A DNA stretch of 64,000 nt from Flavobacterium sp. MFBS3-15 (lineage in GTDB: Bacteria; Bacteroidota; Bacteroidia; Flavobacteriales; Flavobacteriaceae). The notes beneath the pieces are model-generated. The model worked only from the letters and a program-made list of their open reading frames with translations, had not been told where the DNA came from and searched no databases. A program made the position numbers and the translations under genes. Shown here one piece after another: positions 28,411 through 42,714 of this stretch; position 1 is the stretch's first letter, and the number at the start of each line of letters is the position of its first letter. Location: assembly GCF_026107645.2 (NCBI RefSeq), contig NZ_JAPCHV010000012.1, positions 62,001-126,000 on the forward strand, given 5' to 3'.

Positions 28411-28453
28411 TGACACAGGTCATTTACCCAGAATTGTCATTGCGTTAATTTTG
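28411..28453 (+). promoter_or_regulatory. CRP/FNR-type box with fixed-spaced -7 element (PEP-protein/kinase/regulator operon)
   Basis: TGAC-ACAG-GTCA (28411-28422) is a perfect dyad. TAATTTTG (28446-28453) matches the -7 consensus TAnnTTTG, with 23 nt between. The dyad centre would lie near -41 of the transcription start, the class II activator position. Five more promoters in the window have exactly the same layout, so the operon encoding the kinase and the regulator is probably autoregulated. Confidence 0.75.
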
Positions 28454-28501
28454 CTTTGTTACGGATAATGCCTTTTGGCTCCGTAGCCTAACAACGATGC
28501 G

Positions 28502-29554
28502 ATGGAACGATCTATAATAAAATTCGGTGAGGCCGGGACGGGCAATGCTTCAGAAATAGGGAGCAAAAATGCCGCTTTAGAGGATTTGTATGCAATCCCG
28601 GCCACTAAGGGCCTTCATGTTCCCGATGGATTTGCGGTAACGGTGGCTGTCTTTACGAAGTTCATGCAGCACAACGGTCTGCAGGAATCGCTTAGGCAGC
28701 TCATGGAACGGTTGGAGAGGAAAGATTTTTCTAACCTTAATGAAACCGGTACAGCAGCACGAAGGCTTATCATGGAAGCGAAATTCCCGCGGATTCAGGA
28801 ACAGGAAATAACTGATGCGTATGCTGCACTCCTTCCCCTGAAAAATGGCGATGTGGCTGTACGCAGCAGTCCGTTTGCTACAGGATTTTCAAATCTTTTT
28901 CCGGAAGGGCTGCACGAATCGTACCTCAATATAAGAGGGCCATTGGCGCTCATTTATGCCATAAAATGCTGCTATGCGTCGCTCTACAGCAACAAGGCGA
29001 TAAAATTCCGCGAAACCCACGGCATTGCGCATGATGCTGTATATCTTGCCATCGGCATACAGCGCATGGTACGTGCAGGCACAGGATGCTCCGGGATTTG
29101 CAACACACCGCACTCCGGTTCCGGTTTTCCCGATGGGGTCCGGATCACTGCCAACTGGGGATTGGGCCAGAATACCCTGCCGGAAACGTGGGACGAATAC
29201 ATCATCCGCCGGCCGTTGCAAAATATGGCAGGCAATATCCAAAAAAGCACCGGCAGCAAAAGCAGGATGACGGTGTACAAGGATGTATCTGCCGGAACCA
29301 ACTCGACCCTCACAATCATTACCCTTCCTGAACTGCGCGTTAAGACGGTGCTTGACGATGCAGAAATTTTTGAGCTTGCCCGGCTTGCGCTGCTTCTTGA
29401 GGTACACTATGGCCGTCCTGTAGGATTTGAATGGGCCAAAGACGGTGACGATGACCTGTTTTACATTACCGGGTTATGCCCTGAAGACCCGCGCAGCTAC
29501 AGACACACGGAAGTAATGCATCCCAAACCGCAAAAGGGCTACGATGTAGCATAA
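28502..29554 (+). CDS. Standalone PEP-synthase/PPDK-type ATP-grasp domain protein
   Basis: A 350-residue protein that corresponds only to the N-terminal nucleotide-binding domain of phosphoenolpyruvate synthase. Recognisable parts are GSKNAALEDLY, VPDGFAVTVAVFTKF, VAVRSSPFATGFSNLFPEGLHESYLN (the family usually has RSSATAED...SFAGQ) and CSGICNTPHSGSGFPDGVRITANWGLGQ (usually SGVMFTxxxxxGF...ITAxxGLGE). The phosphohistidine swivel domain and the C-terminal PEP/pyruvate barrel are absent, so the full PEP synthase reaction is not possible. Several loop residues differ from active enzymes. It is first in an operon with a FixL-like kinase and a receiver-CRP regulator, behind a CRP-type box. A regulatory or energy-sensing role is conceivable but is only inference. 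Confidence 0.75.
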   Translation: MERSIIKFGEAGTGNASEIGSKNAALEDLYAIPATKGLHVPDGFAVTVAVFTKFMQHNGLQESLRQLMERLERKDFSNLNETGTAARRLIMEAKFPRIQEQEITDAYAALLPLKNGDVAVRSSPFATGFSNLFPEGLHESYLNIRGPLALIYAIKCCYASLYSNKAIKFRETHGIAHDAVYLAIGIQRMVRAGTGCSGICNTPHSGSGFPDGVRITANWGLGQNTLPETWDEYIIRRPLQNMAGNIQKSTGSKSRMTVYKDVSAGTNSTLTIITLPELRVKTVLDDAEIFELARLALLLEVHYGRPVGFEWAKDGDDDLFYITGLCPEDPRSYRHTEVMHPKPQKGYDVA

Positions 29555-29619
29555 GTGACTTTTATGATAAATCTTACAGATTATTTTCCCGATATTTGTT
29601 TTTTAGTAAAAGACACCTG

Positions 29620-30807
29620 ATGAAAAACGAGGCGCTTTTAAACTCCATCGTAGAGAATGCAATAGACGGCATCATTACCATCAACGACCGGGGCATAGTA
29701 GAATCCATAAACCCTGCGGCATGCCAGCTCTTCCTGTACTCTCCTGAAGAGGTTGTAGGCCGGAATATTTCAATGCTCATGCCGCCCCCTGATAAGGAGA
29801 GGCATGACGACTACATTGAGAGATACCGGCACACCGGGCAGGCCCATATCATAGGATACGGCCGGGATGTTATAGGCCTGAAAAAGGACGGCAGCGTTTT
29901 CCCTTTCCGTTTGGGTGTTAGTGAAGTGAAGTATGAAGGAGAGCGCATGTTTGCGGGTTTTATACACGACCTGAGCCACCAGAAAGAGGCAGAAAATCGC
30001 CTTATGGAATATACTCAGCATCTGGAGGATGTAGTAAAGGAACGTACAACTTCACTCAACGAAACCATTGAGGAACTGACCAAGGCCAAAGAAGAAGTGA
30101 GCCTGTCGCTCGAAAAGGAAAAAGAACTGGGTAAGCTCAAGAGCCGGCTGCTCTCTATGGCTTCGCACGAGTTCCGCACACCGCTGAGTTCCATACAGCT
30201 TTCGGCATCCCTGATAGAACGCTATACAGCCCAATTGGAAAATGCCAATGTAGAAAAGCACTTATACAAAATAAAAGGTGCTGTAAACAACCTTACTACC
30301 ATTCTCAACGACTTCCTGCACGTGGAGAAGGCAGAGGCCGGAAAGGTAGAAGTAAAATGGGGCTCTTTTGACATTGAACACTTTTGCAGGGAAATTGTTG
30401 ATGAGATACAACTGCTTGCCAAAAAAGACCAGAATATCATCTACAATCATGTAGGTAAAAATACGGAAGTATTCCTGGACCGAAACCTGTTGCGCAACTG
30501 TATTTTCAACCTCATGTCGAACGCAATAAAATACTCCGGAGAGAATACTACCATACACCTCAGCACATGCATTGATGCGGATAGTTTTACCATCACTGTG
30601 GAGGATAACGGCATAGGCATACCCAAAGAGGAGCATAAGCACCTGTTTGAAGCCTTTTTCAGGGCACAAAACACGGGGAACATACCGGGCACCGGGCTTG
30701 GCCTCAATATTGTACTGCGCTATGTAACCCTGATGAATGGCACCATCAACTTTAAAAGTGCCACCAACGAAGGAACTTTATTTACAATTACATTCCCAAT
30801 ACAATGA
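29620..30807 (+). CDS. FixL-like haem-PAS oxygen sensor histidine kinase
   Basis: A 395-residue soluble kinase; the ATG at 29620 is chosen over a TTG eight codons upstream. The PAS domain (about residues 5-118) aligns without gaps to the haem domain of Bradyrhizobium FixL as I know it. The proximal haem ligand His200 corresponds to His62 (KERHDDYIERYR). Arg206 corresponds to Arg68, His214 to His76, Ile215 to Ile77 and the oxygen-contacting Arg220 to Arg82 (HIIGYGR). A coiled coil leads to a HisKA domain with His183 (MASHEFRTPLSS) and a HATPase with N-box (NCIFNLMSNAIKYSG) and G-boxes (DNGIGIP, GTGLGLN). It should phosphorylate the receiver-CRP protein encoded by the overlapping next gene when oxygen is low. 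There are no membrane segments. Confidence 0.88.
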   Translation: MKNEALLNSIVENAIDGIITINDRGIVESINPAACQLFLYSPEEVVGRNISMLMPPPDKERHDDYIERYRHTGQAHIIGYGRDVIGLKKDGSVFPFRLGVSEVKYEGERMFAGFIHDLSHQKEAENRLMEYTQHLEDVVKERTTSLNETIEELTKAKEEVSLSLEKEKELGKLKSRLLSMASHEFRTPLSSIQLSASLIERYTAQLENANVEKHLYKIKGAVNNLTTILNDFLHVEKAEAGKVEVKWGSFDIEHFCREIVDEIQLLAKKDQNIIYNHVGKNTEVFLDRNLLRNCIFNLMSNAIKYSGENTTIHLSTCIDADSFTITVEDNGIGIPKEEHKHLFEAFFRAQNTGNIPGTGLGLNIVLRYVTLMNGTINFKSATNEGTLFTITFPIQ

Positions 30808-31853
30808 CCAGAGTACTGATAATAGAGGATAATGACGATATTCGCGAAAACGTAGTGGAAATACTGGAGCTTTCCGGATACACGGCATATGCTGCACCAA
30901 ACGGGAAAGCAGGAGTTGAGGTGGCCATAAAACAGCTGCCCGACATCATACTTTGCGACATCATGATGCCTGAAATGGATGGCTACGGCGTTATAGAGGC
31001 GCTGAACAATCACCCGCAAACCCGTGCAACGCCTTTCATTTTTCTTACGGCAAAAGCAGAACGCACGGATGTGCGAAAGGGCATGGACCTGGGCGCTGAT
31101 GACTACCTGACAAAGCCTTTTGATGATACCGAACTGTTAAATGCCATTGAAAGCCGGCTGAAGAAAAAAGAGGTACAACAGCTGTTTTATGGCAAAACCG
31201 CTGAGAAACTTGACAGCATCATGAGCAAAAACAATGGCCTTGAAGAGCTGAAAAAGGTAATGCAGGAGCGCGATACTCGCATTTTTAAAAAGAACCAGGC
31301 CATACACCATGAAGGCGACCGCGTAACAGGCATCTACTTCATCATCAGCGGGAAGGTAAAAACGGTACAGCTGACACAGGACGGCCGCGAACTGATAACC
31401 GGGATGTATGCAGCCAACGACTACCTGGACCTGAACATCATACTGTCCAACGACACTTATATTGATACTGCCATTGCCGTGGAAGAGGCCGAACTGAGTT
31501 TCCTGCCAAGCGAGCAGCTGGACAAGCTGCTATTCCTTCACCCGGACATTGGGGCAAAATTCATAAAGATGCTGGCCAACAACATACGCGATAAGGAAAC
31601 AAGGCTGTTGCAAATTGCTTACCTATCGGTACGCAAGCGTATTGCACAGTCGATTATACGCCTGTTGGATCAGGAGGGCAATGGTGTGAGGAGCATCAAA
31701 GTAAGCCGTGATGACCTGGCTGCGATATGCGGTACAGCCCCGGAAACCGTGAGCCGCACCCTAACCGACTTTAAGGAGGAAGGCCTTATTGAAAAAAGCG
31801 GCAGTACCATACAGGTGCTGAATTATGAAAAGCTGGACAAACTGAAGAATTAA
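30804..31853 (+). CDS. Response regulator with receiver and CRP/FNR-type DNA-binding module (FixJ/FixK-like fusion)
   Basis: A 349-residue protein overlapping the kinase stop (ATGA). The receiver (about 1-120) has acidic residues Glu8, Asp9 and Asp11, phospho-acceptor Asp52 (ILCDIMMPEMDG) and the TAK and KPF motifs. A linker helix leads to a cyclic-nucleotide-type beta-roll (about 150-245) and a Crp helix-turn-helix whose recognition helix reads ETVSR (314-318), the E-xx-SR pattern that reads TGA half-sites in FNR and FixK. No FNR-type cysteine cluster is present, so oxygen information must come from the kinase. It is the likely activator of the TGAY-N4-RTCA promoters before its own operon, hemN, the cbb3 genes and the acetyl-CoA hydrolase. 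Confidence 0.92.
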   Translation: MTRVLIIEDNDDIRENVVEILELSGYTAYAAPNGKAGVEVAIKQLPDIILCDIMMPEMDGYGVIEALNNHPQTRATPFIFLTAKAERTDVRKGMDLGADDYLTKPFDDTELLNAIESRLKKKEVQQLFYGKTAEKLDSIMSKNNGLEELKKVMQERDTRIFKKNQAIHHEGDRVTGIYFIISGKVKTVQLTQDGRELITGMYAANDYLDLNIILSNDTYIDTAIAVEEAELSFLPSEQLDKLLFLHPDIGAKFIKMLANNIRDKETRLLQIAYLSVRKRIAQSIIRLLDQEGNGVRSIKVSRDDLAAICGTAPETVSRTLTDFKEEGLIEKSGSTIQVLNYEKLDKLKN

Positions 31854-31865
31854 GCCTCAGGCTAT

Positions 31866-32321
31866 TTATAACTTTTCCATTCCTGCAAGGGTTTCCATCA
31901 GCTTGGCTTCTTTTTCGCGATAGCTTTCCATAAATCGCTCCATCCTTTGTATAACTGAGGCATCTATGGCAAAGGCATCTATTTTTTCCTCAAAACGCTC
32001 TCCCCTGAGCAGTTTTTCGCTAAGCTGTTCGAGTTGGCCATCAGCTTTAAAAATGGCATTGCGCAGTTGCCCCTTGTTTTTGCCGTCCGGATCGTCGAGC
32101 CTGTCGGCTGCACGGGAAATCTTTTTTCGTGCTGCAAGGACATTGTTTTCAGACTGCCGTTTAAACAGTTTCCAGTCGTCCATTGCATTCCGTATTTTGT
32201 AATCCAGCTCTTCATAATCAGCCTGTACGGTAGTTTCGTACTGCTCTTTTTCTTCCTGGTCTTCAGCACATCCTTTGGGAGCCAGTGCCAGCAATATACC
32301 GGCAAGCACATAAATTTTCAT
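31866..32321 (-). CDS. Small helical lipoprotein of unknown function in the CRP-box regulon
   Basis: A 151-residue protein with a signal ending in a lipobox-like APKGC (cysteine at about residue 18). The rest is almost entirely charged amphipathic helix (KQSENNVLAARKKISRAADRL; GQLEQLSEKLLRGERFEEKIDAF), suggesting a coiled-coil or helical-bundle periplasmic protein. I recognise no family. It converges with the regulator gene (12 nt between stops) and diverges from hemN. Its promoter has a TGAT-N4-GTCA dyad at the same 23-nt spacing from a -7-like GAGATTTG as the other microaerobic promoters, so it probably responds to oxygen limitation. Confidence 0.7.
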   Translation of the reverse strand: MKIYVLAGILLALAPKGCAEDQEEKEQYETTVQADYEELDYKIRNAMDDWKLFKRQSENNVLAARKKISRAADRLDDPDGKNKGQLRNAIFKADGQLEQLSEKLLRGERFEEKIDAFAIDASVIQRMERFMESYREKEAKLMETLAGMEKL

Positions 32322-32339
32322 AGTGTTGATGTTTTATGG

Positions 32340-32382
32340 CAAATCTCAACCATTATTTAAAGCCATAAAATGATTCCTGTCA
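32340..32382 (-). promoter_or_regulatory. CRP/FNR-type promoter for the small lipoprotein
   Basis: On the minus strand the dyad at 32371-32382 (plus-strand TGAT-TCCT-GTCA) is 23 nt from a -7-like GAGATTTG (32340-32347, read on the minus strand). TTTG is kept while TA is GA. The spacing is identical to the other boxes of the region. Confidence 0.6.
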
Positions 32383-32410
32383 CTACAAGCCAGGGCAAAT
32401 ATTGCAAAGG

Positions 32411-32453
32411 TGATGCCTGTCATTTTTTGCAGTTGTACCGTCCCGTACTTTTG
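32411..32453 (+). promoter_or_regulatory. CRP/FNR-type promoter for hemN
   Basis: TGAT-GCCT-GTCA (32411-32422) lies 23 nt before a perfect -7 box TACTTTTG (32446-32453). The leader to the first ATG (32465) would be under 10 nt, so the second in-frame ATG at 32474 may be the true hemN start. Confidence 0.7.
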
Positions 32454-32464
32454 AAACATAAAAA

Positions 32465-33838
32465 ATGACGGAAATGGAAAGTTCGATATTGCAAAAATAT
32501 AATGTACCGGGGCCGCGCTACACCAGCTACCCTACTGTTCCCTATTGGGATAATTCAGGTTTTACAGAAACATTGTGGCAGGACAGCGTAGTGCGCTCAT
32601 TTGGCGAAAGCAATGGTGTGCAGGGCATCAGCCTGTACATCCATCTTCCGTTCTGCGAAAGTATGTGCACCTTTTGCGGGTGCAACAAGCGTATCACGAA
32701 AAACCATGCGGTAGAAGCAAGGTACATAAGTGCCATACTGAAGGAATGGGTGATGTACCGTGATCTTTTCAGGAGCAGGCCCCGCATAAAAGAGCTGCAT
32801 CTTGGCGGGGGAACACCTACATTCTTCAGTCCTGAAAACCTCGAAAAACTTATTAAGGGCATCTTTGAACTGGCCGATGCGGCGCCGGGATATGAGTTCA
32901 GCTTTGAAGGACACCCCAACAACACTACCCGCGAACATTTGGAAACCCTATACAACCTGGGATTCCGCAGGGTAAGCTTTGGCGTTCAGGACTACAGCGA
33001 AACCGTACAAAAAGCCATCAACCGTATACAACCTTTTGAAAATGTGGCAAAAGTGACCCGTTGGGCCCGTGAAATCGGGTACAGCTCCATCAGCCATGAC
33101 CTGGTGTTTGGGCTGCCGCACCAAACGGTTGAAAACATTGTGGACACTATTGAAAAGACCAATGCGCTCAGGCCCGACCGCATCTCTTTTTACAGCTATG
33201 CCCATGTGCCGTGGATAAAAGGCACAGGACAACGCGGCTTTGATGACGCGAGCTTGCCAAAAGATAACGAAAAACGCAGGCTGTATGAAGTTGGAAAAAA
33301 AATACTCTGCGACAAAGGGTATCACGAAATTGGCATGGACCATTTTGCATTGAAGAGCGATAGCATGCACGAATCATTTAAGAAAGGAACGCTTCACCGC
33401 AACTTCATGGGGTACAGCTCTTCCAGCACCCAACTGATGATCGGGCTGGGCGTATCTTCCATCAGCGACAGCTGGTACAGCTTTGCGCAAAATGAAAAAA
33501 CACTGGAGGATTATTACCAAAGGATAGAACAAAATGAGTTACCGGTTTTCCGAGGGCACATTCTTACAGAAGAAGATCTTGCCATACGCAGGCACATACT
33601 GAACCTGATGTGCCGGTTTGAAACATTATGGGATGATGAAGACAGTTATTTCAACGAATTGCCGGAAGTGCTTTGGGATTTGAGGGAGATGGAAAAAGAC
33701 GGGTTGGTAATAATTGACGATATGTCGATAATGATAACTGAAAAAGGCCTTCCGTTTGTACGTAACATCTGCATGGCCTTCGACCTGAGGCTGAAAAGGA
33801 AGGCTCCGGAGACGAAGCTGTTTTCGATGACGATATAA
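32465..33838 (+). CDS. hemN: Oxygen-independent coproporphyrinogen III dehydrogenase
   Basis: A 457-residue radical SAM enzyme that oxidatively decarboxylates coproporphyrinogen III to protoporphyrinogen IX without oxygen, a haem-synthesis step needed under low oxygen. The YNVPGPRYTSYPTVPYW opening is typical of HemN. The 4Fe-4S cluster motif is HLPFCESMCTFCGC (Cys64, Cys68, Cys71, plus the HemN-specific Cys73). The GGGTPT and SFEGHPNNTT segments and the C-terminal HemN domain are present. It sits behind a CRP/FNR-type promoter beside the oxygen-sensing regulator genes, consistent with supplying haem to the cbb3 oxidase. A start three codons later is possible (see the promoter entry). Confidence 0.96.
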   Translation: MTEMESSILQKYNVPGPRYTSYPTVPYWDNSGFTETLWQDSVVRSFGESNGVQGISLYIHLPFCESMCTFCGCNKRITKNHAVEARYISAILKEWVMYRDLFRSRPRIKELHLGGGTPTFFSPENLEKLIKGIFELADAAPGYEFSFEGHPNNTTREHLETLYNLGFRRVSFGVQDYSETVQKAINRIQPFENVAKVTRWAREIGYSSISHDLVFGLPHQTVENIVDTIEKTNALRPDRISFYSYAHVPWIKGTGQRGFDDASLPKDNEKRRLYEVGKKILCDKGYHEIGMDHFALKSDSMHESFKKGTLHRNFMGYSSSSTQLMIGLGVSSISDSWYSFAQNEKTLEDYYQRIEQNELPVFRGHILTEEDLAIRRHILNLMCRFETLWDDEDSYFNELPEVLWDLREMEKDGLVIIDDMSIMITEKGLPFVRNICMAFDLRLKRKAPETKLFSMTI

Positions 33839-33856
33839 TTTTAGGATTTAGTTTAG

Positions 33857-33887
33857 AAAACCGGTATTGCATGATACCGGTTTTTTT
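33857..33887. terminator. Bidirectional terminator between hemN and the TauE/SafE-like gene
   Basis: AAAACCGGTAT (33857-33867) is perfectly complementary to ATACCGGTTTT (33874-33884) with a short loop. A T-run follows on the plus strand, and the A-run on the other side works for the minus strand. It lies between two convergent genes. Confidence 0.85.
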
Positions 33888-33904
33888 ATCACCTTTCGAA
33901 TAAG

Positions 33905-34618
33905 TTAGTGCCCAGGTGTAACGCAGTCCGGGGCAGAGGTCACAAAAAGGGAAAGGTCGCCGGGAGAAAGATACGGGATACTCAGTCCCAACCCTCGCAC
34001 GATGAACAACATGCCGATGGCTACTGCCGCATAAGGGACTATCTTACTGAAGGAATTACGCAGGGGATTTTTCAAAATCCCGGAAGCATAGACTACCATG
34101 CTCATCAAAGGGATGGTCCCGGCACCGAACAGCATCATGTACAGCATTCCGAGCGGCACGCTTTGCATGGCAATGGCACCAAATAATGCTGCATAGACCA
34201 ATCCGCACGGCAGGAAACCGTTAAGCACCCCGGCAGTATACAATGACCTGTAGCCCTTTTTCCTGAACCTGCTCCCCAATCCGGTTTTCACTTTCGAAAT
34301 AGCCATGTACACCGGCTTACTAAAATTATAGCGCGCAAAGATATTCTCCGGTACCATTACAATCGCAATCATCACAATACCTGTAATGATGGAAAACTGT
34401 TGTTGGATTCCGGCAAGGTAGAGCCCCCTGCCCATTGTACCAAAAATCAGCCCTAACGAACCGTAAGCCGTTAGCCTGCCTGCGTGGTAGGTAAGTATCT
34501 GTAAGGTTTTCTTAGCAGGGTTGTTGCGATCCACCGGCAGCATCATGGCTATGGGCCCGCACATGCCAATGCAGTGCAGGCTGGAAACAAGGCCGAGTAT
34601 GATGGCGGAGTAAAGCAT
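33905..34618 (-). CDS. TauE/SafE-like membrane protein of the cbb3 cluster
   Basis: A 237-residue protein with about six membrane segments and the diagnostic HCIGMCGP motif near the N-terminus (about residues 15-22). A second GFLPCGLVYAAL segment in the middle gives the usual internal repeat of the UreH/DsbD-like branch annotated as sulfite exporter TauE/SafE. Proteins of this branch with HCxGMCGP are commonly encoded in cbb3 oxidase clusters and are suspected to handle copper or thiols during assembly. That function is family knowledge and is not shown here. It is the last gene of the minus-strand cbb3 cluster, separated from ccoH by a 117-nt AT-rich spacer. Confidence 0.8.
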   Translation of the reverse strand: MLYSAIILGLVSSLHCIGMCGPIAMMLPVDRNNPAKKTLQILTYHAGRLTAYGSLGLIFGTMGRGLYLAGIQQQFSIITGIVMIAIVMVPENIFARYNFSKPVYMAISKVKTGLGSRFRKKGYRSLYTAGVLNGFLPCGLVYAALFGAIAMQSVPLGMLYMMLFGAGTIPLMSMVVYASGILKNPLRNSFSKIVPYAAVAIGMLFIVRGLGLSIPYLSPGDLSLFVTSAPDCVTPGH

Positions 34619-34735
34619 CTTTTTTTAGATTGTTGGATTTTTAGATGAGAGATAATAAACGAATAGATGATGGACTAAATCCGTAATGCTAATGTCTATT
34701 ATCTATCATCTATTATCTCTTTGTCTATTGTCTTC
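34619..34735 (-). repeat. AT-rich low-complexity spacer with inverted repeats
   Basis: The spacer is built of TAGATGA/TCTATTATC-type short motifs. GAGATAATA near 34649 can pair with TATTATCTC near 34711-34719, and ATAGATGAT with ATCATCTAT, giving a long imperfect hairpin. It may modulate expression of the last gene of the cbb3 operon or be a decayed intergenic repeat. Confidence 0.4.
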
Positions 34736-35182
34736 TTACAATGTCAGCACTTGTCGTACAAGGTATCCCTTATTGTCGTATTGCCAGTCTACAGTAATGT
34801 CCCATCGACCGCCTGCCAGGTCACTTTTAGGTATGAGCAAATGATGGCCTGATAATGAAAAAGGGACTTCAAAATCAAGTTTCTGGTCAGACGGCCTGTA
34901 AAGGGACACTTTACCTTTAATTTTCTTATAATCGAGCTCTTCCGGGAAACTGATAGCTATACCTCCTCCCTGATTTACAATGAGCACCTTGTGCTCCAGC
35001 CCGGCAGCATTTTGTTCCTTGTCCAGCTGTGCCTGCAGTGTGCGCTCCTGTTTGTAGTATTCCTCTACCACAAGCTCATTATCGTATTTGCTGTCGCTTT
35101 GCACCCGGAAGACAAAAAACAATATGAATCCCATAAAAAGTGCAAACGCTGTTACTATTCCCGTACCCCAATTGAATTTCAT
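34736..35182 (-). CDS. ccoH: FixH/CcoH family cbb3 assembly protein
   Basis: A 148-residue protein with one N-terminal membrane span (about residues 8-27, GIVTAFALFMGFILFFVFRV) and a periplasmic domain with the family's DNELVVEEYYKQE segment after the anchor. The beta-rich end (GRWDITVDWQYDNKGYLVRQVLTL) is typical of FixH. The family is required for stable assembly of cbb3 oxidase together with CcoG, CcoI and CcoS. It is 12 nt downstream of ccoG in the same operon. Confidence 0.9.
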   Translation of the reverse strand: MKFNWGTGIVTAFALFMGFILFFVFRVQSDSKYDNELVVEEYYKQERTLQAQLDKEQNAAGLEHKVLIVNQGGGIAISFPEELDYKKIKGKVSLYRPSDQKLDFEVPFSLSGHHLLIPKSDLAGGRWDITVDWQYDNKGYLVRQVLTL

Positions 35183-35194
35183 GTCATTTTAGTT

Positions 35195-36613
35195 TTAGTT
35201 GAACGTCCGTGGCCCCAAAAAGTTAGTAGTCTCGGTATCTAAGCGTTTATCCCCGTTGTACACTTCCAGGGTAATTTTCGTTTTGTCTCCCTTAAGCCAG
35301 ACGGGATTTATCTCTACAAACAATGTCCCTGAAGCGATCCCCTCCCTTGGCACTTTAAACCTTGGCGCGCCTACTGGTTTTACGATGCCCTTAGGGCTGG
35401 ACAGTACAAAGTGTACATCGTTAAAATCTCTTGTGGTTTTATTGATTACCTTATATGTAAACACATTGCTTATATTCCCGCCTTTATGTTCAAAAAGCTG
35501 TCCCGGAAGGCGTAGAACAGTTGCCTCAACATCGTTACGTAAAAAGAGCATCCCTGAAAAGACACCTGTCAATATGAGCAGTACCGCTGCATAGCCCTTC
35601 ATCCGCGTGGTAAAAACGAACTTTTCCTTTTTGGTTATTTCATCCTCACTTGCATAGCGTATCAATCCCTGCGGAAAGCCTACCTTATCCATAATGGTAT
35701 TACACTCATCAATACAAGCGGTGCAGTTGGTGCACTCAAGCTGGGTTCCGTTGCGTATATCGATTCCCATTGGGCAAACGCTCACACAAAGCTTGCAGTC
35801 GATACAATCTCCCTTGCCCGAAAGTATCCGGTCTTCATTCTTAATTATCCTGCCGCGGCCGTTTTCAGCTTCGCCACGCACATGGTCGTAGGCAACTACA
35901 ATCGTTTTATTATCAAGGAGTGCGCCCTGCAGCCTACCGTAAGGGCAGGCGATGATGCATACCTGCTCCCTAAACCAAATATATATGAAATAAAAAACTC
36001 CTGTAAATATCAGCAGGGCAATCAGGGTACCCATGTTATCGGCAGGACCTTCCTCAACCATTTCGATCAGCTCATCACTGCCGGTGAGATAGGCCAGGAA
36101 CACATTGGCAATGACAAAAGAGATGACAAAAAACACAAACCACTTGAGGCCCTTCTTACGGATTTTCTCCTGGTTCCACTCCTGCTTATCGAGTTTTATC
36201 TGCGCATTCCTGTCACCTTCAATCCAGTATTCTATCCGGCGGAATACCATTTCCATGAAGATTGTCTGGGGGCATATCCACCCACAAAAGATTCGCCCGA
36301 ACGCGACTGTGAAAAGTGCCACAAACACGACCCCAATGATCATTGAAATAACAAAAAGGTGAAAATCCTGTGGCCAGAAAGGAAAACCGAAAATATTAAA
36401 CTTACGCTCTAATACATTGAACATAAGGAACTGGTTACCATTAATTTTAACAAATGGCGCCGCTATCAAAAAAGCCAATAAGAACCACGAAACAGTTTTC
36501 CTGTACTCATACAGTTTTCCCTGTGGCTTTTTAGGATACACCCATGCCCTTTTTCCTTCTTCATCTACTGTTCCGAGACGGTCCCGAAACTCCTCATCAT
36601 GCAAATCGTCCAT
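35195..36613 (-). CDS. ccoG: cbb3 oxidase accessory protein CcoG (RdxA/FixG)
   Basis: A 472-residue polyferredoxin-like membrane protein. It has several membrane spans in the first half and the NapH-type GRIFCGWICPQTIFMEMVFRRIE motif. A double 4Fe-4S ferredoxin site follows (CIDCKLCVSVCPMGIDIRNG, then CTNCTACIDEC), then another span and a C-terminal immunoglobulin-like domain (CcoG_C). CcoG is thought to reduce copper(II) for the cbb3 binuclear centre. It follows ccoP by 6 nt and precedes ccoH. Confidence 0.95.
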   Translation of the reverse strand: MDDLHDEEFRDRLGTVDEEGKRAWVYPKKPQGKLYEYRKTVSWFLLAFLIAAPFVKINGNQFLMFNVLERKFNIFGFPFWPQDFHLFVISMIIGVVFVALFTVAFGRIFCGWICPQTIFMEMVFRRIEYWIEGDRNAQIKLDKQEWNQEKIRKKGLKWFVFFVISFVIANVFLAYLTGSDELIEMVEEGPADNMGTLIALLIFTGVFYFIYIWFREQVCIIACPYGRLQGALLDNKTIVVAYDHVRGEAENGRGRIIKNEDRILSGKGDCIDCKLCVSVCPMGIDIRNGTQLECTNCTACIDECNTIMDKVGFPQGLIRYASEDEITKKEKFVFTTRMKGYAAVLLILTGVFSGMLFLRNDVEATVLRLPGQLFEHKGGNISNVFTYKVINKTTRDFNDVHFVLSSPKGIVKPVGAPRFKVPREGIASGTLFVEINPVWLKGDKTKITLEVYNGDKRLDTETTNFLGPRTFN

Positions 36614-36619
36614 GTAATA

Positions 36620-37534
36620 TTATTTACTGTTAGCCGCCACTTCAGGTGCTTTTGTAGTCTCGTCTTTCCAGACTTCACCATCCGGGGCTTTAGGATCTTT
36701 AGGGTTTGAGCCCTGTAGCGAAATTACATAGCTTGCCACCTTTTGTATCTCCGATGGCTTTAGTGTCCCTTTCCACGGCACCATACCCTTACCGTCGCGC
36801 CCACCTTCGGTTATGGTGTGGAAGACATTTTTGATACCTCCGCCCAAAATCCAGTGTTCGTCCGTTAGGTTTGGCCCTATAGCGCCACCGGCATCTGCCC
36901 TGTGGCATGCGGCACAGTTGGTTTCAAATATCTTTTTCCCTTCTGCAAGTTCCCCTGCATCAGTCAGTAAGGTTACAGTATTGGCATCAATCAGGTCTTT
37001 AGCGGTCTTCCTGTATTCCTCAACGGCAATGCGCGCCTCTTCCATTTCAGTGTCAAATTCTGCTTTTTGGTCGTCACCGTCCATAATGTGGAAACGTACC
37101 AGGTATACCGCAGCAAACAAGATGGTTACATAAAAGAGCTTTACCCACCACGGAGGCAACACATTGTCCAGCTCGTGTATGCCGTCGTAATCGTGGTTCA
37201 TAAGTACAGTACCCTCTTCTTCTATTGACTTGCCTTTTATAAAGAACCCTCTAAGTTTTATAAACCACGCACTCTGCGTGAAGTCAGTTTCATCGGCTGC
37301 GGCCAGTCTTGCTTTCTGCTCCTCGTTCATAAGGGCATTGGTTACCTTATCAACTGCAGCCACCATAATTTCAATGGCTATCAGTATGAAAACGACTATG
37401 AAAAGGAATAGCGAAACTTCGGGATATTTAATAAATGCCGGCCTGTCGCCTGAATCGATGAAAAACTCAAGTGCTGCAAAAATTATTGCAAATATCAGTG
37501 GTGCCCTTACATAAACAGGAAAATACTTTTTCAT
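36620..37534 (-). CDS. ccoP: cbb3 oxidase subunit CcoP, single-haem form
   Basis: A 304-residue membrane-anchored cytochrome c. Three hydrophobic segments (about 11-27, 41-61 and 131-149) precede a class I cytochrome c domain with haem site CAACH (207-211) and axial Met251 (KGMVPW). Classical proteobacterial CcoP has two CxxCH sites; only one is present here, and the N-terminal part is longer and carries extra membrane spans. The LPPWWVKLFYVTILFAAVYLVRF segment is the conserved CcoP anchor. It passes electrons from soluble cytochrome c to CcoO. Encoded between ccoQ and ccoG. Confidence 0.93.
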   Translation of the reverse strand: MKKYFPVYVRAPLIFAIIFAALEFFIDSGDRPAFIKYPEVSLFLFIVVFILIAIEIMVAAVDKVTNALMNEEQKARLAAADETDFTQSAWFIKLRGFFIKGKSIEEEGTVLMNHDYDGIHELDNVLPPWWVKLFYVTILFAAVYLVRFHIMDGDDQKAEFDTEMEEARIAVEEYRKTAKDLIDANTVTLLTDAGELAEGKKIFETNCAACHRADAGGAIGPNLTDEHWILGGGIKNVFHTITEGGRDGKGMVPWKGTLKPSEIQKVASYVISLQGSNPKDPKAPDGEVWKDETTKAPEVAANSK

Positions 37535-37545
37535 ATGGCTTTGTT

Positions 37546-37734
37546 TTAAATTGTATTATTTTCATCCTCTCCCGAAAAAGGAAGGTTACTCAGTTCCTCA
37601 ATTTTATCTTTCTTGTATGTGTAGACCCACGTGTACAATCCCACAAAAAAAATGAAGAATATAAGCAGCGAAATGATAGGGTAAATCTCAATCCCTGCAA
37701 TGGATTCCAGATTGTGCTTTACAAACTTTAGCAT
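37546..37734 (-). CDS. ccoQ: CcoQ-like small cbb3 oxidase subunit
   Basis: A 62-residue protein with one membrane helix (about residues 18-38, IYPIISLLIFFIFFVGLYTWVY), a basic stretch and an acidic tail. Position between ccoNO and ccoP plus the single-span layout identify it as CcoQ, which stabilises the CcoP interaction. Sequence alone would not be enough. Confidence 0.8.
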   Translation of the reverse strand: MLKFVKHNLESIAGIEIYPIISLLIFFIFFVGLYTWVYTYKKDKIEELSNLPFSGEDENNTI

Positions 37735-37740
37735 GGCTTA

Positions 37741-39933
37741 TTATTTTGAAGGTTTGTTTTCTTTAATCTTTATATCTGTACCAAGGCGCTGCAGGTACGC
37801 TATCAGGGCCACAATTTCGCGGTCTTTCATAGGAACAAACTCCTCACCCCTTGCCTGTGAAGCTTTTCGGCTTTCCTCGTAGCTCTTTACAAAGTCGGGA
37901 TCCGCATGCAGGCTTTTCTCGATTTTGGACGCCTGCTCGCTAATGCTGGCTTTCGCATTGGCAATATCCTTTTTGCTGTAAGGAACTCCAAGTTGCCCCA
38001 TCACTTCCATCTTTTTCTCAATGTCGGAATAATCCATTTTTTTGTTATCAAAGAGCCACTTATAGGCAGGCATGATTGAGCCTTCGGAAGTGCTTTGCGG
38101 ATCCCACATGTGGTTAAAATGCCAGTTGTCGCTGTACTTGCCCCCTACCCTCATCAGATCCGGGCCGGTGCGCTTTGACCCCCACAGGAACGGATGGTCG
38201 TACACATATTCACCCGATTTGGAATACTCGCCATAACGCTCCACCTCACTTCTGAAAGGCCTGATCATCTGTGAATGGCAGCCTACACAACCCTCACGGA
38301 TGTAAAGGTCACGCCCTTCAAGCTCCAATGGCGTATATGGTTTTACAGTAGAAATTGTAGGTATGTTGGACTTTACCATTATAGTCGGAACAATCTGTAT
38401 AACTCCTCCTATCAGTACAGCAATGGTGGCAAGTATTGCAAGTTGTATCGGCTTTCTTTCAAGCCATGGGTGGAATTTTTCACCCTTAAGCCTTTTGCTG
38501 CTTATTTTTTGCAGTTCAGGCGCTTCGGCAAGCTCGTCCTCGATTTTCTGGCCCTGCCTTACAGTCATTATGATATTATACACAAGTACAAGCAATCCTA
38601 TCACGAAAAGCGTTCCGCCTATCGCCCTCATCCAGTACATTGGCATGATTTGCTTCACCGTTTCAAGGAAGTTGCCGTATTTCAATGTTCCGTCAGGATT
38701 AAACTCCTTCCACATAGAAGCCTGGGTAAAACCGGCAACATACATAGGCAATGAATACATGATGATACCCAGCGTACCGATCCAGAAGTGGAAATTGGCC
38801 AGCTTAACAGAGTATAGCGAAGTCTTAGTCATGCGCGGTATGAGCCAGTAGATCATACCGAAGGTAAGGAACCCGTTCCAAGCCAGTGCACCGACGTGCA
38901 CGTGTGCAACGATCCAGTCGGTAAAGTGGGCAATGGCGTTTACATTCTTAAGCGAAAGCATCGGCCCTTCGAACGTCGCCATGCCATAGCCGGTAATGGC
39001 AACCACAAAAAATTTGAGTACCGGGCTTGTGCGCACTTTATCCCACGCGCCGCGCAATGTCAGCAATCCGTTGATCATGCCACCCCATGATGGCGCGATA
39101 AGCATGATGGAAAATACCACGCCCAGGTTTTGCGCCCAGTCGGGCAACGCTGAATACAGCAGGTGGTGCGGCCCGGCCCAGATGTAGATGAATATGAGCG
39201 ACCAAAAGTGGATGATGGATAGCTTATAAGAATACACAGGACGGTTAGCGGCCTTCGGTACAAAATAGTACATCAGTCCCAGGAATGGCGTGGTCAGGAA
39301 AAAAGCCACCGCGTTATGACCGTACCACCATTGTACCAGCGCATCCTGAACGCCTGCATAGGCTGAATAGCTTTTCATGCCACTTACAGGCAGGGCAAGG
39401 CTGTTAAAAATGTGAAGTATTGCTACAGTTATGAATGTGGCCAGGTAAAACCAGATAGCAACGTACATATGGCGTTCCCGCCTTTTGATGATGGTGCCAA
39501 TCATGTTGATGCCAAACACCACCCATATCAGTGCAATGGCAATGTCTATGGGCCACTCGAGCTCGGCATATTCTTTAGAAGAGGTATAACCCAACGGGAG
39601 CGATATGGCTGCGGCGACAATGATGAGCTGCCAGCCCCAAAAGTGAATGTTGCTCAGTGCGTTGCTAAACATCCTTGTTTTAAGAAGTCGCTGCATTGAA
39701 TAATAAATACCCGCAAACATAGCATTTCCCACAAAGGCGAAAATAACCGCATTGGTATGCAGCGGCCTCAGCCTTCCGTAACTTAGCCAGGAAACACCGT
39801 CGGTAAGGTTGGGGAACAGGTACATCGAGGCTATCAGCAGCCCCACGAGCATTCCCACTACCCCGAATACAATCGTAGCGTAAAGGAACTTTTTTACTAT
39901 CTTATTGTCGTAATAAAATTGTTGCATTTCCAT
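37741..39933 (-). CDS. ccoN: Fused cbb3 cytochrome c oxidase subunits I and II (CcoN-CcoO)
   Basis: A 730-residue fusion. Residues about 1-480 are the 12-helix CcoN catalytic subunit carrying the haem b, haem b3 and CuB ligands (for example GRLRPLHTNAVIFAF, WWYGHNAVAFFLTTPFLG, HVHVGALAWNG). After a linker, the CcoO part begins with a membrane anchor and has the monohaem cytochrome c site CVGCH (549-553) within YIREGCVGCHSQMIRPFRSEVERYGEYS (read in parts). It continues through the WGSKRTGPDL and MPAY motifs. Fusion of N and O is common in Bacteroidota. It reduces oxygen to water with high affinity and pumps protons. It starts 2 nt after the ccoS stop. Confidence 0.97.
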   Translation of the reverse strand: MEMQQFYYDNKIVKKFLYATIVFGVVGMLVGLLIASMYLFPNLTDGVSWLSYGRLRPLHTNAVIFAFVGNAMFAGIYYSMQRLLKTRMFSNALSNIHFWGWQLIIVAAAISLPLGYTSSKEYAELEWPIDIAIALIWVVFGINMIGTIIKRRERHMYVAIWFYLATFITVAILHIFNSLALPVSGMKSYSAYAGVQDALVQWWYGHNAVAFFLTTPFLGLMYYFVPKAANRPVYSYKLSIIHFWSLIFIYIWAGPHHLLYSALPDWAQNLGVVFSIMLIAPSWGGMINGLLTLRGAWDKVRTSPVLKFFVVAITGYGMATFEGPMLSLKNVNAIAHFTDWIVAHVHVGALAWNGFLTFGMIYWLIPRMTKTSLYSVKLANFHFWIGTLGIIMYSLPMYVAGFTQASMWKEFNPDGTLKYGNFLETVKQIMPMYWMRAIGGTLFVIGLLVLVYNIIMTVRQGQKIEDELAEAPELQKISSKRLKGEKFHPWLERKPIQLAILATIAVLIGGVIQIVPTIMVKSNIPTISTVKPYTPLELEGRDLYIREGCVGCHSQMIRPFRSEVERYGEYSKSGEYVYDHPFLWGSKRTGPDLMRVGGKYSDNWHFNHMWDPQSTSEGSIMPAYKWLFDNKKMDYSDIEKKMEVMGQLGVPYSKKDIANAKASISEQASKIEKSLHADPDFVKSYEESRKASQARGEEFVPMKDREIVALIAYLQRLGTDIKIKENKPSK

Positions 39934-39935
39934 GA

Positions 39936-40118
39936 TCAGGCGTTATTTTGATTTTGTGGTTTGTTTTCTTCCTTCTTTATCTCGTCGTCAAATAATACCC
40001 TGACAGAAGGGGTATAACTGTCGTCAAATTGCCCCTGCTTCACTGCCTTTATGAAGGCATAAAGAAAAAGGACCGCGACAATAATACTGATGGTGATCAA
40101 TAAATAGATTACGCTCAT
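39936..40118 (-). CDS. ccoS: CcoS cbb3 maturation protein
   Basis: A 60-residue protein with one N-terminal membrane helix (SVIYLLITISIIVAVLFLYAFI) followed by the family's KAVKQGQFDD and RVLFDDE motifs. The family is needed for insertion of haem and copper cofactors into cbb3 oxidase. It is the first gene behind the CRP/FNR-type promoter at 40139-40181 and is followed directly by ccoNO. Confidence 0.92.
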   Translation of the reverse strand: MSVIYLLITISIIVAVLFLYAFIKAVKQGQFDDSYTPSVRVLFDDEIKKEENKPQNQNNA

Positions 40119-40138
40119 GGTTCTTAAATTTATGTTAA

Positions 40139-40181
40139 CAAAATTAGTTGAGGCACGGTTCTTAAAATATGACGATGGTCA
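40139..40181 (-). promoter_or_regulatory. CRP/FNR-type promoter for ccoS-ccoNOQP and downstream genes
   Basis: The dyad TGAC-GATG-GTCA (40170-40181), extended to ATGAC/GTCAT, lies 23 nt from TAATTTTG on the minus strand (40139-40146), a perfect TAnnTTTG. The leader to ccoS is about 18 nt. The site lies between the ccoI stop and the ccoS start, so the oxidase genes have their own oxygen-regulated promoter. Confidence 0.75.
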
Positions 40182-40202
40182 TGTTTACTGTTTTTTTTAC
40201 AA

Positions 40203-42575
40203 TTATTTTCTGCGTGCATAATAATTACTCATTACCGTCACAAAACTGATGATGGTAATTGTGCTCAGCGGCATGATGATCGCGGCTGTGAGCGGCATAA
40301 GCCTTCCTGTAACGGCGAAAGACAACCCCACCACATTGTACAGCAGCGACAGTACAAAACTCATCCGGATGGTGTTGATAGTCCGTTTGGAAAGCTGCAT
40401 GAAATATCCCAGTTTTCGGAATTCTCCCGCATCGAATATGCCATCACAGGCAGGCGAGAACACATTGACATTTTCAGAGATGGCGATTCCGACATTGCTT
40501 TGTGCCAGAGCACCGGCATCGTTAAGCCCGTCGCCAATCATCATTACGTTACTGCCTTTCATTTGGAGATTTTCAATAAAAGCCAGCTTCTGCTCCGGTT
40601 TTTGGTTAAAATGAAATTCAGTCCCCAGAGGGAGCAGCTGTTCCAGCACATGCCTCTCGCCGGCATTGTCGCCTGATAGTATTTTAAGTGAATAATTCTT
40701 CTGCAATTCGGCAAAAAGCCCCTTCAGGCCTTCGCGATATTGATTATCAAAAACATACTTGCCCATGTAGTTGCGGTTAATGGCAATGTGCACGTTGGTC
40801 TGCATCAGGTTATCCTCCTCGTAGCCTACAAATGCCGCCGACCCGATTTTAATATGAATACCATCAATTACCCCACTAATCCCTTTTCCGGTTACTTCCT
40901 CAAAATCATCTACCGGGAGCGCGCGCGTCATAGGCAGCGCATCATACAGCATCCTGCTCAAGGGGTGGTTCGAGCCGCGCAGTACATTCCTTATGTACAT
41001 CAGCTGCTTGTCGTCAGGAGCGGTACCCTCAAAATAGATTTCCGACTTTTTATTGGTGGTTATGGTTCCTGTCTTATCAAAAACTATGGTATCAATCTTT
41101 GCCATCTGCTCTATCACGGTGGCATTTTTAAGATAGAGTTTGCGGTTGCCCATTATCCGGAGCACGTTGCCCAACGTAAATGGGGCGCTCAAAGCCAATG
41201 CGCATGGGCACGCCACTATAAGCACGGCAGTAAACACATTGAAGGCAGTTTGCGTATCAATAAAAATCCATATGCCGAAAGAAACAACTGCTATCAATAG
41301 CAATAATGGAGTAAAATATCGGCTGATGGTATCGGTCATGGTCTTGTAATCCCTGTCGCCCTTTCGGGAAAACACGTCATTGCTCCACAACTGTGTAAGG
41401 TAGCTTTGCGATACCGACCGCAGCACTTCCATTTCGACCACAGGGCCAATCTGCTTACCTCCTGCATATATCTTGTCACCGGAATGCTTGGTTACGGGAA
41501 CCGATTCACCTGTTACAAAGCTGTAGTCTATCAGGGTGCTCTCGCTCATCAGTATCCCGTCTACAGGAATGAGCTCGTTGTTGCGTATCAGTAGCCTGTC
41601 ACCTGGCTGCACATCATATACAGGTATTGATACTTCGCCCCTGTCGGCCACTAACTTAGTTACCGCTATAGGAAAATAGGATTTGAAATCACGTTCGAAA
41701 GAAAGGAAATTATACGTTTTTTGCTGGAAAAGTTTTCCTAAAAGCATAAAGAACACCAGCCCCGTAAGGCTGTCGAAAAAGCCCTGCCCGTAGCCAAAGA
41801 TGATGTCGACAGTACTGCGAACAAACATCACCACGATACCCAATGCGATGGGTACTTCGATATTTAACATGCCCGCCCTGACACTTTTCCATGCCGATAT
41901 GTAATATCCGCTTGCCGAGTAGAGGAACGACGGTAATGCCAATGTAAATACAAGCCAACGGAAAAAGCCGCGGTAATTGTCCAGCCAGTACTCCTCCATT
42001 TCAAAATATTCGGGAAATGACAGCAGCATGATGTTTCCAAAGCAAAAGAACGCGACGCCCAGCTTATAGATAAGGTCGCGGCTCACACTTTTAGGCTTAT
42101 TGTCATAATTGTCGAGGCTGATATAAGGCTCATAGCCAATGGAGTTGAGCATATATACAATTTCCTTAAGCGTAGTGGCCGATGGGTCAAAGATGATGCG
42201 CACCCTTTTTTCATGGAAATTGACCTGCGAGCTGCTTACGGCCTTGTTGAGTTTATTAAGGTTTTCCAATATCCAAATACAGGAGCTGCAATGGATGTGC
42301 GGAATGTAGAGGCTAATAATATGTAAATTGTCCTCTTCAAATTCCAAAAGCCTTTTAACGATGTCCTCATTGTCAAGAAAGTCATACTTGCCACTGATTT
42401 CCTGTGGTGTTGATCCCGGCGACCGCTCAAAGCTGTAATAATCCGTAAGCCCGTTGAGGCTGAAAATTTCATATACGGTCTTACAGCCGTTGCAGCAAAA
42501 AGATTTCTCATCAAAAATGATCTCCTCTTTCTTTACAACGTCCAGTCCGCAATGAAAACATTTTTGCGTGTCCAT
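40203..42575 (-). CDS. ccoI: Copper-transporting P-type ATPase for cbb3 assembly (CcoI/FixI)
   Basis: A 790-residue P1B-type ATPase. The N-terminus has a cysteine-rich CFHCGLDVV...CCNGCKTVYEIF region (YHS-like, typical of FixI) and a heavy-metal-associated domain with HIHCSSC. The membrane ion motif CPCALALSAPF, the phosphorylation site DKTGTIT and the hinge GDGLNDAGAL are present. It supplies copper for the CuB centre of cbb3 oxidase. A separate CRP/FNR-type promoter lies before it, back to back with that of the acetyl-CoA hydrolase. Confidence 0.95.
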   Translation of the reverse strand: MDTQKCFHCGLDVVKKEEIIFDEKSFCCNGCKTVYEIFSLNGLTDYYSFERSPGSTPQEISGKYDFLDNEDIVKRLLEFEEDNLHIISLYIPHIHCSSCIWILENLNKLNKAVSSSQVNFHEKRVRIIFDPSATTLKEIVYMLNSIGYEPYISLDNYDNKPKSVSRDLIYKLGVAFFCFGNIMLLSFPEYFEMEEYWLDNYRGFFRWLVFTLALPSFLYSASGYYISAWKSVRAGMLNIEVPIALGIVVMFVRSTVDIIFGYGQGFFDSLTGLVFFMLLGKLFQQKTYNFLSFERDFKSYFPIAVTKLVADRGEVSIPVYDVQPGDRLLIRNNELIPVDGILMSESTLIDYSFVTGESVPVTKHSGDKIYAGGKQIGPVVEMEVLRSVSQSYLTQLWSNDVFSRKGDRDYKTMTDTISRYFTPLLLLIAVVSFGIWIFIDTQTAFNVFTAVLIVACPCALALSAPFTLGNVLRIMGNRKLYLKNATVIEQMAKIDTIVFDKTGTITTNKKSEIYFEGTAPDDKQLMYIRNVLRGSNHPLSRMLYDALPMTRALPVDDFEEVTGKGISGVIDGIHIKIGSAAFVGYEEDNLMQTNVHIAINRNYMGKYVFDNQYREGLKGLFAELQKNYSLKILSGDNAGERHVLEQLLPLGTEFHFNQKPEQKLAFIENLQMKGSNVMMIGDGLNDAGALAQSNVGIAISENVNVFSPACDGIFDAGEFRKLGYFMQLSKRTINTIRMSFVLSLLYNVVGLSFAVTGRLMPLTAAIIMPLSTITIISFVTVMSNYYARRK

Positions 42576-42598
42576 TATTTGCTCATTTTACCTGTGGG

Positions 42599-42641
42599 CA
42601 AAATTGGCTCCTATGCCCAGAAAGGGAAATGACATGCATCA
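42599..42641 (-). promoter_or_regulatory. CRP/FNR-type promoter for ccoI
   Basis: The dyad ATGAC-ATGC-ATCAT (core 42630-42641) lies 23 nt from a -7-like CAATTTTG on the minus strand (42599-42606; one mismatch to TAnnTTTG). The spacing is the same as in the other five promoters. Confidence 0.65.
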
Positions 42642-42671
42642 TTAAGGCTGTGCATGTTTAGATGTTAAAAG

Positions 42672-42714
42672 TGACAAAAGTCATATTTACTACAATCGGG
42701 CAGACGTAATTTTA
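42672..42714 (+). promoter_or_regulatory. CRP/FNR-type promoter for the acetyl-CoA hydrolase gene
   Basis: TGAC-AAAA-GTCA (42672-42683) is a perfect dyad, 23 nt before TAATTTTA (42707-42714; one mismatch to TAnnTTTG). The ATG follows at 42732. Confidence 0.65.

Follow-up and report, generated by a model that had tools for sequence, protein, structure and literature searches.

Introduction

The question raised here is which protein reads a set of equally spaced promoters around the cbb3 oxidase genes of Flavobacterium sp. MFBS3-15, and whether the spacing itself can name that protein. The stretch of DNA analysed (the window) comprises 64,000 nucleotides (nt; assembly GCF_026107645.2, contig NZ_JAPCHV010000012.1, positions 62,001 to 126,000 of the forward strand). 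It contains six boxes of the form TGAY-N4-RTCA, all six intergenic and each exactly 23 nt from a TAnnTTTG-type -7 element. A FixL-like histidine kinase with a haem-type PAS domain and a fusion of a receiver domain to an FNR-type DNA-binding protein are encoded next to each other among these promoters. Judged from sequence comparison, the likely answer is that the kinase senses oxygen and phosphorylates the fusion, which would then act as a class II activator at promoters inherited from an FNR regulon. The geometry, being used also by relatives that lack the fusion and by other CRP-like genes, does not name the regulator.

Promoter geometry

Three of the six promoters carry a full TAnnTTTG match and are found as strict composites in a scan of the genome. 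They are those of the PPDK_N-kinase-regulator operon (box TGACACAGGTCA, 28411..28422, + strand; -7 element TAATTTTG, 28446..28453, +), of hemN (box TGATGCCTGTCA, 32411..32422, +; -7 element TACTTTTG, 32446..32453, +) and of ccoS-ccoNO (box TGACCATCGTCA, 40170..40181, - strand; -7 element TAATTTTG, 40139..40146, -). The other three have one mismatch in the -7 element and are found in the genome scan when up to one mismatch is allowed. They precede a putative lipoprotein gene (box TGACAGGAATCA, 32371..32382, -; -7 element GAGATTTG, 32340..32347, -), ccoI (box TGATGCATGTCA, 42630..42641, -; -7 element CAATTTTG, 42599..42606, -, lacking the first T) and an acetyl-CoA hydrolase gene (box TGACAAAAGTCA, 42672..42683, +; -7 element TAATTTTA, 42707..42714, +). 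The first-pass annotation, made from the sequence by eye and open reading frames, had listed these boxes, their 23-nt gaps and the division into three perfect and three one-mismatch -7 elements, and all coordinates and gaps were borne out. Tandem partner boxes were sought for the six boxes and none was found. In the two divergent promoter pairs (32371-32422 and 42630-42683) the boxes are 40 and 42 base pairs (bp) apart, about four helical turns.

TGAYN4RTCA boxes number 9 in the window, compared with 2.76 expected from shuffling. When both strands are read, 6 of the 18 box readings have a -7 element of at least 5/6 matches at gap 23, and the other 55 gaps between 5 and 60 yield 4 together (P ~1e-9 for one preset gap, ~6e-8 after multiplication by the 56 gaps). 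In 200 first-order Markov resamplings, never more than two boxes fell at one gap. Together with the gap scan of the genome described below, these results rule out chance spacing.

The -7 element is numbered T-12 to G-5 in F. johnsoniae (PMC6847099) and given the same -12 to -5 range in F. psychrophilum (PMC9723704). With this numbering the 23-nt spacer puts the dyad of each box between -42 and -41, i.e., at a predicted -41.5, and the class II geometry proposed in the first-pass annotation is thus well supported.

The composite of box, gap and -7 element had also been put forward as a template for finding the regulon throughout the genome. In the 4.0-Mb genome the strict composite, allowed gaps of 8 to 38, gives 11 matches at gaps 11, 23 (five times), 24, 25, 25, 29 and 33. 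With up to one mismatch, gap 23 gives 18 matches (6 in the window, 12 outside) and the reversed pattern 1, so the scan favours gap 23 over random spacing. Six such promoters within 14.3 kb are far above the genome average of 18 matches in 4 Mb. By open reading frame (ORF) positions, seven of the 12 outside matches are upstream of a gene, four lie inside ORFs (one at the very start of its ORF, where it could also serve a divergent gene) and one reads a previously counted palindrome in the opposite direction. The seven include three directly behind CRP-like genes, one upstream of ompW and one at a flavoprotein gene that, by eye, resembles ferredoxin reductase and has Mrp- and NifU-like genes as neighbours. 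The set of oxygen genes thus seems to be concentrated in the window. The ompW-like gene (L011:225-926), assigned by an NCBIfam match of E 1.8e-31 that is under the family's cut-off, has a strict gap-23 composite directly upstream.

Apart from the fusion, the genome contains nine CRP-like genes (eight short and one of 261 amino acids, aa), whose surroundings were scanned at gaps 20 to 26. At four of the nine, a gap-23 box of 7 or 8 matches lies at or within 28 bp behind the stop codon (P ~3e-8, a simple estimate for one preset gap), and the only further match, at gap 22, stands before one of the same genes. These four genes (L046, L047, L051 and L053) precede the boxes, and in two of them the TGA of the box is the stop codon itself. 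The composite therefore marks CRP/FNR class II promoters in general, and as a template for a single regulon it is weak.

The fusion and its partner kinase

The fusion (30804..31853, +, 349 aa) consists of a receiver (PF00072), a cyclic-nucleotide-binding fold (PF00027) and a Crp-type helix-turn-helix (PF13545). The receiver residues Asp9, Asp52, Thr82 and Lys104 are intact, Asp52 being the phosphoacceptor. The recognition helix reads ETVSR, and E-x-x-S-R is a form that we take to be linked with FNR. An N-terminal CxxC cluster is lacking, the only cysteines being those at 51 and 309. Against the NCBIfam models Fnr and FixK the fusion scores 71.1 and 72.3 bits, well under the cut-offs of 228 and 300. 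The comparison set of 60 genomes consisted of the window genome and 59 relatives, of which 36 belong to its genus and 23 to the rest of the order. Full-length matches occur in four of the 60: the window genome, G024 (66% identity), G033 (67%) and G021 (52%). The nearest named relatives of the fusion are from Flavobacterium, with identity up to 72%. Named carriers of the fusion were taken from a scan of genome contigs as its best 80 loci, most of them in Mucilaginibacter, Pedobacter and Flavobacterium; they are not a census.

The kinase (29596..30807, +) has a FixL-type haem PAS domain. Its best matches in the PDB are FixL chains, at E 7.7e-32 for the whole kinase and 7e-32 for the PAS domain alone, and the best non-FixL chain for the PAS domain reaches 5e-16. 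His70 and Arg90 align with the haem-ligand His and the oxygen-contacting Arg of FixL, presumably His200 and Arg220 of the Bradyrhizobium protein; chain 1y28, which has Ala at the Arg position, would fit what we take to be the R220A variant. The score against the NCBIfam FixL equivalog is 171.7 bits with a cut-off of 850, and the kinase is therefore described as FixL-like and not filed as FixL. Among 76 kinases beside fusions (those of the window, G024 and G033 included), 62 have both the His and the Arg. The haem His is lost in G024, G033 and L187 and replaced by Gln in two Dyadobacter kinases, and nine distant kinases keep the His and have another residue for the Arg in a poorly aligned stretch. 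In 7 of the best 80 named loci the kinase is missing beside the fusion. Since the haem His is absent from some partner kinases, the signal is not oxygen in all pairs of this kind; for the pair in the window it is the likely one, judging by the retained ligand residues. In G024 (L116) and G033 (L118) the kinase lacks the haem His and the genome keeps a CxxC-bearing FNR.

Distribution of the stand-alone FNR

The relatives commonly encode a stand-alone FNR-type protein of ~230 aa. A search with the G033 copy finds it in 43 of the 59 relatives (E no higher than 2.4e-40), and 12 of the 15 ccoNO neighbourhoods described in the next section have its gene divergent from ccoI. The Flavobacterium protein begins MSKCEQCIVRE and has the recognition motif ESCIR. 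The N-terminal CxxC is present in 39 of 40 Flavobacterium-type copies as called, and the 40th has it behind an over-extended start. On the strength of the CxxC the protein is called an iron-sulphur (Fe-S) FNR here, and it probably senses oxygen directly through its Fe-S cluster. The best matches from 10 fusion-bearing genomes of other genera have no CxxC within the first 60 residues in any case; with lengths of 350-354 aa, five of these ORFs are probably fusions themselves.

Within the genus the stand-alone FNR and ccoNO are coupled in their occurrence. The FNR is present in 32 of the 36 relatives, G034 (60% complete) having only a 90-aa piece of ccoNO. Both a full FNR and a close ccoNO are lacking in G001, G019, G021 and G026; a 59-residue FNR match is left in G021. 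In the window genome, a draft of 43 contigs rated 99.83% complete, no FNR ortholog was found, the sole match at E 1e-10 being the fusion itself (28% identity). Among the 37 genomes of the genus, the window genome alone combines a close ccoNO with the lack of an FNR; outside the genus, the 0.3-Mb genome of G051 also has ccoNO without FNR.

Of 26 named genomes with the fusion, 13 belong to Flavobacterium, and 10 of these also have the FNR at an identity of at least 62%; it was not found in BFFFF1, JAD_PAG50586_2 and F. turcicum. In the 13 non-Flavobacterium genomes the best FNR matches are at 29-36%. Among the 13 Flavobacterium loci, hemN-cco comes within 10 kb of the kinase-fusion pair in one alone, that of Flavobacterium sp. 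BFFFF1, a metagenome-assembled genome. BFFFF1 thus shows the same combination as the window genome, with the fusion beside hemN-cco and no FNR found. The order kinase-fusion-hemN-(DsbD-like)-ccoG-P-NO-I, as in the window, recurs in at least 15 of the best 80 loci (Mucilaginibacter, Pedobacter and Arcticibacter), and some of the other loci end before the gene order does. In the tree of fusions the window copy groups with that of F. subsaxonicum (support 98/73) within a Flavobacterium group of eight (100/100), and a recent transfer of the fusion from Sphingobacteriaceae is accordingly not supported. As F. subsaxonicum keeps the FNR, loss of FNR in the line of the window genome is the simpler reading.

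Conservation in related genomes

The strict gap-23 composite occurs 274 times in the 59 relatives, against 9 for the reversed control, and at least once in 49 of the 60 genomes including that of the window. Among the 150 matches listed for 10 relatives, 40 are at gap 23, 17 at gap 24 and 93 at the other 29 gaps. Orthologous promoters were compared in the ccoNO neighbourhoods of 15 relatives (11 of the same genus, 4 of other families), all of which have the FNR. A gap-23 box of 7 or 8 matches precedes ccoNO in 15 of 15 neighbourhoods and ccoI and hemN wherever they were found (12/12 and 10/10). This count weighed gaps 23 and 45 only; an open scan of the same loci at gaps 5 to 59 gives 38 matches at 23, with no other gap exceeding 6. 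A stricter scan that demanded the full box, at gaps 21 to 26, does not detect the ccoNO boxes of L130 and L132, each of which deviates at one position. The -7 element of ccoI lacks its first T in all 12 orthologous promoters, as it does in the window. The geometry is thus inherited and not peculiar to this strain, and the promoters look as if they derive from a genus-wide FNR regulon. In line with this, strict composites number 1.76 per Mb in the 43 relatives with FNR and 0.41 in the 16 without (rank test 1e-7), a comparison qualified by the small size of many genomes without FNR; inside the genus (32 with, 4 without) the rank test gives 0.018.

The smaller peak at gap 24 seems to belong to another type of CRP, and spacing may therefore distinguish regulators. 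In all three places examined (L278:1044, L279:1295 and L281:1455) the gap-24 composite adjoins a CRP-like gene of 195-198 aa. In two of them it lies between that gene and a 132-aa gene, upstream of the latter, which we take, by eye and without a family search, to be truncated-haemoglobin-like.

A second geometry is found in other carriers of the fusion. Counting box to -7 element (at least 5 matches), the best 80 loci yield 108 cases at gap 23, 146 at gap 45 and 1 to 28 at each other gap from 5 to 49. The gap-45 set has a second, weaker box exactly 22 bp downstream (L165-L244; e.g., L175:11042), which suggests tandem dimers at -63.5 and -41.5. Before ccoNO, 20 of these loci comprise 15 tandem, 1 outer-only and 2 single arrangements and 2 with none, and before ccoI a single box is present in one of two. 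The nearest recognised genes of the tandem sites include those for the kinase, ccoNO, Hsp20, hemN and UspA, and in 95 of 145 cases the gene was not recognised. Over the whole genomes of five carriers (strict composite, gaps 18 to 48, n = 133), 30 matches are at gap 23, 12 at 24, 8 at 22 and 17 at 45. Pedobacter nutrimenti shows little excess at either gap (3 at 23 and 3 at 45, of 32) and Dyadobacter little at gap 45 (1 of 24). Gap 45 hardly exceeds background in the 59 relatives (42 matches, 20 for the reversed pattern), though three fusion carriers have such a site directly next to the fusion. Tandem boxes were considered as a signature of the fusion and rejected, since four FNR-bearing neighbourhoods from other families have tandem ccoNO promoters as well.

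Regulation of the six promoters

The simplest reading is that one regulator serves the whole set. A dimer would bind TGAY-N4-RTCA at -41.5, beside RNA polymerase whose sigma factor, the primary one of Bacteroidota, contacts TAnnTTTG, and in the window genome this dimer would be the receiver-FNR fusion (30804-31853). At low oxygen the FixL-like haem-PAS kinase would lose its oxygen, autophosphorylate and pass the phosphate to Asp52 of the fusion. The phosphorylated protein is predicted to activate the genes for the cbb3 oxidase, the copper ATPase, HemN, the acetyl-CoA hydrolase and the small lipoprotein, and also its own operon, which would amount to positive feedback. The sensor would have been exchanged while the operators stayed unchanged. 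The first-pass annotation had held that uniform spacing implies activation by one CRP-family protein, most simply the fusion. A single regulator with the fusion as the likeliest candidate is supported, but the spacing does not point to it, as the same boxes and spacing occur in relatives that have the stand-alone FNR and no fusion, and at four of the nine other CRP-like genes. A box specific to the fusion is rejected on the same ground. The fusion is the likely regulator by elimination and by its neighbourhood.

On how the arrangement arose, we incline slightly to the reading that the Fe-S FNR was lost in this lineage and that the haem-PAS kinase and the receiver-FNR protein took over the same single-box class II promoters, beside hemN-cco as in Sphingobacteriaceae. 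Several observations weigh against control by the fusion or against such a takeover. G024 and G033, close relatives with the fusion, have kinases without the haem His, and G019 has 5 strict composites despite having no FNR, no fusion and no ccoNO. The window genome has no strict gap-45 composite and its six promoters are single-box, whereas many targets in the named fusion loci have tandem boxes, so the fusion perhaps prefers tandem sites. Among the best 80 fusion loci, no box of either kind stands before hemN in 28 of 35 (another gene may separate the fusion from hemN there), and the inner ccoNO box often has only 6/8 matches. A gap in the draft assembly could also hide an FNR, though the genome is nearly complete and the usual FNR site lies within the window and is filled by another gene.

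The alternative that survives best is that another CRP-family protein, e.g., a short (~190 aa) paralogue, drives the six promoters and the fusion is a mere neighbour. The genome has 11 matches to the cyclic-nucleotide-binding domain (one under the cut-off), six of the eight short CRP-like proteins have E-x-L-S-R recognition helices when read by eye, and the boxes behind CRP-like genes indicate that such proteins probably can read the geometry. The paralogue-linked boxes, however, adjoin the paralogues' own neighbours, whereas the six sites include promoters whose orthologues in relatives lie beside the CxxC FNR, and it is the fusion that is the genome's only match to that FNR at E 1e-10. We consider this alternative unlikely.

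Two further explanations are given little credence, to about the same degree. A stand-alone Fe-S FNR might be present but unassembled, with the fusion in an accessory role, which it may also play in F. subsaxonicum or strain Root186, where both proteins occur. The coexistence of the two in 10 of 13 named Flavobacterium fusion genomes and the 43-contig draft would agree with this; the rated completeness, the occupation of the usual site divergent from ccoI and the matching case of BFFFF1 argue the other way. Alternatively, the spacing could be a generic class II layout for CRP/FNR proteins of the phylum, so that the six genes would not be one regulon. Other CRP members do seem to use gap 23 or 24, but ccoI, ccoNO and hemN keep the box wherever the gene was found in the 15 neighbourhoods, and the clustering within 14.3 kb is far denser than in the genome at large. 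That the boxes are repressor sites or chance palindromes is hardly credible given the exact fixed gap, the orthologous conservation and the predicted class II centre at -41.5. Control by the phosphorylated fusion accordingly stays the preferred reading.

Gene content of the window

The operon of the kinase and the regulator begins with a gene for a stand-alone PPDK_N protein, the ATP-binding domain of phosphoenolpyruvate synthase (28502..29554, +, 350 aa; Pfam PF01326, 1.1e-64), which matches the NCBIfam phosphoenolpyruvate synthase model in its N-terminal part only and scores under the cut-off. Five Flavobacterium loci (L165-L169) likewise have a PPDK_N-like gene upstream of their kinase gene. 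The small putative lipoprotein gene (31866..32321, -) is followed by hemN (32465..33838, +), encoding a radical SAM protein with 70-74% identity in the ten neighbourhoods of the genus where it was found. The genes ccoS, ccoNO, ccoP and ccoG occupy 35195..40118 (-), ccoN and ccoO forming a single fused ORF of 730 aa; ccoNO, ccoP and ccoG were named from sequence and gene order, without a family search. Next are ccoI, encoding a copper P-type ATPase (40203..42575, -), and the acetyl-CoA hydrolase/transferase gene (42732..44003, +). In 12 of the 15 relatives' neighbourhoods, the position of this hydrolase gene, divergent from ccoI, is that of the gene for the stand-alone FNR-type protein. The identities given in the first-pass annotation for the PPDK_N-kinase-receiver/CRP operon, hemN, ccoS, ccoI and the acetyl-CoA hydrolase were confirmed. 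Of its ccoNOQP, the fused ccoNO and ccoP were recognised, with ccoG in addition, and its lipoprotein gene is present but has no Pfam or NCBIfam match.

Comparison with known systems

At E. coli class II promoters the dyad of FNR or CRP lies at -41.5, the same position as predicted here, with a different sigma factor and different core promoter elements. In the stand-alone Flavobacterium FNR, usually encoded beside ccoI, the orthologous promoters, gap 23 and the neighbourhood are shared with the window; the FNR has ESCIR and CxxC whereas the fusion has ETVSR, and the FNR was not found in the window genome. The receiver-CRP fusions of Mucilaginibacter and Pedobacter form the same two-gene pair with a FixL-like kinase, often in the same hemN-cco neighbourhood, but tandem boxes at -63.5/-41.5 are common there and single boxes are the rule here. 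For F. psychrophilum under oxygen limitation, PMC9723704 reports that genes for the cbb3 oxidase and for haem synthesis are up, and the words 'fnr' and 'crp' are absent from its main text. Among the open-access literature matches listed, no description was found of a Bacteroidota FixL-like kinase with a receiver-FNR fusion as its partner, or of the fixed-gap spacing (-41.5; tandem -63.5/-41.5). The latter offers a precise and testable promoter grammar for CRP/FNR activators working with the unusual Bacteroidota sigma factor.

The closest known parallel is the rhizobial FixL-FixJ-FixK/FnrN system. In rhizobia, FixL pathways and FnrN act on one anaerobox, TTGAT-N4-ATCAA, that controls fixNOQP (PMC7888657), the sites of FnrN and those of FixK are not easily distinguished (PMC4999443), and the haem two-component and Fe-S sensors are believed to react to different levels of oxygen (PMC7888657). 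The common features are a FixL-type haem kinase, an FNR-type DNA-binding protein, the core palindrome, cbb3 oxidase targets and the ability of a FixL pathway and a cysteine-cluster FNR to share an operator. The system of the window differs in that the roles of FixJ and FixK would be united in one receiver-FNR protein, in the TAnnTTTG promoter, in that the FNR was not found, and in its Flavobacterium-like host. It may serve as a case of how a regulon can survive an exchange of oxygen sensors, a haem two-component system for an Fe-S protein. Shared control of one operator by FixL and FNR pathways is thus known from rhizobia, and what appears to be new here is that the regulator is fused, that the sensor seems to have been swapped and that the geometry is that of Bacteroidota promoters.

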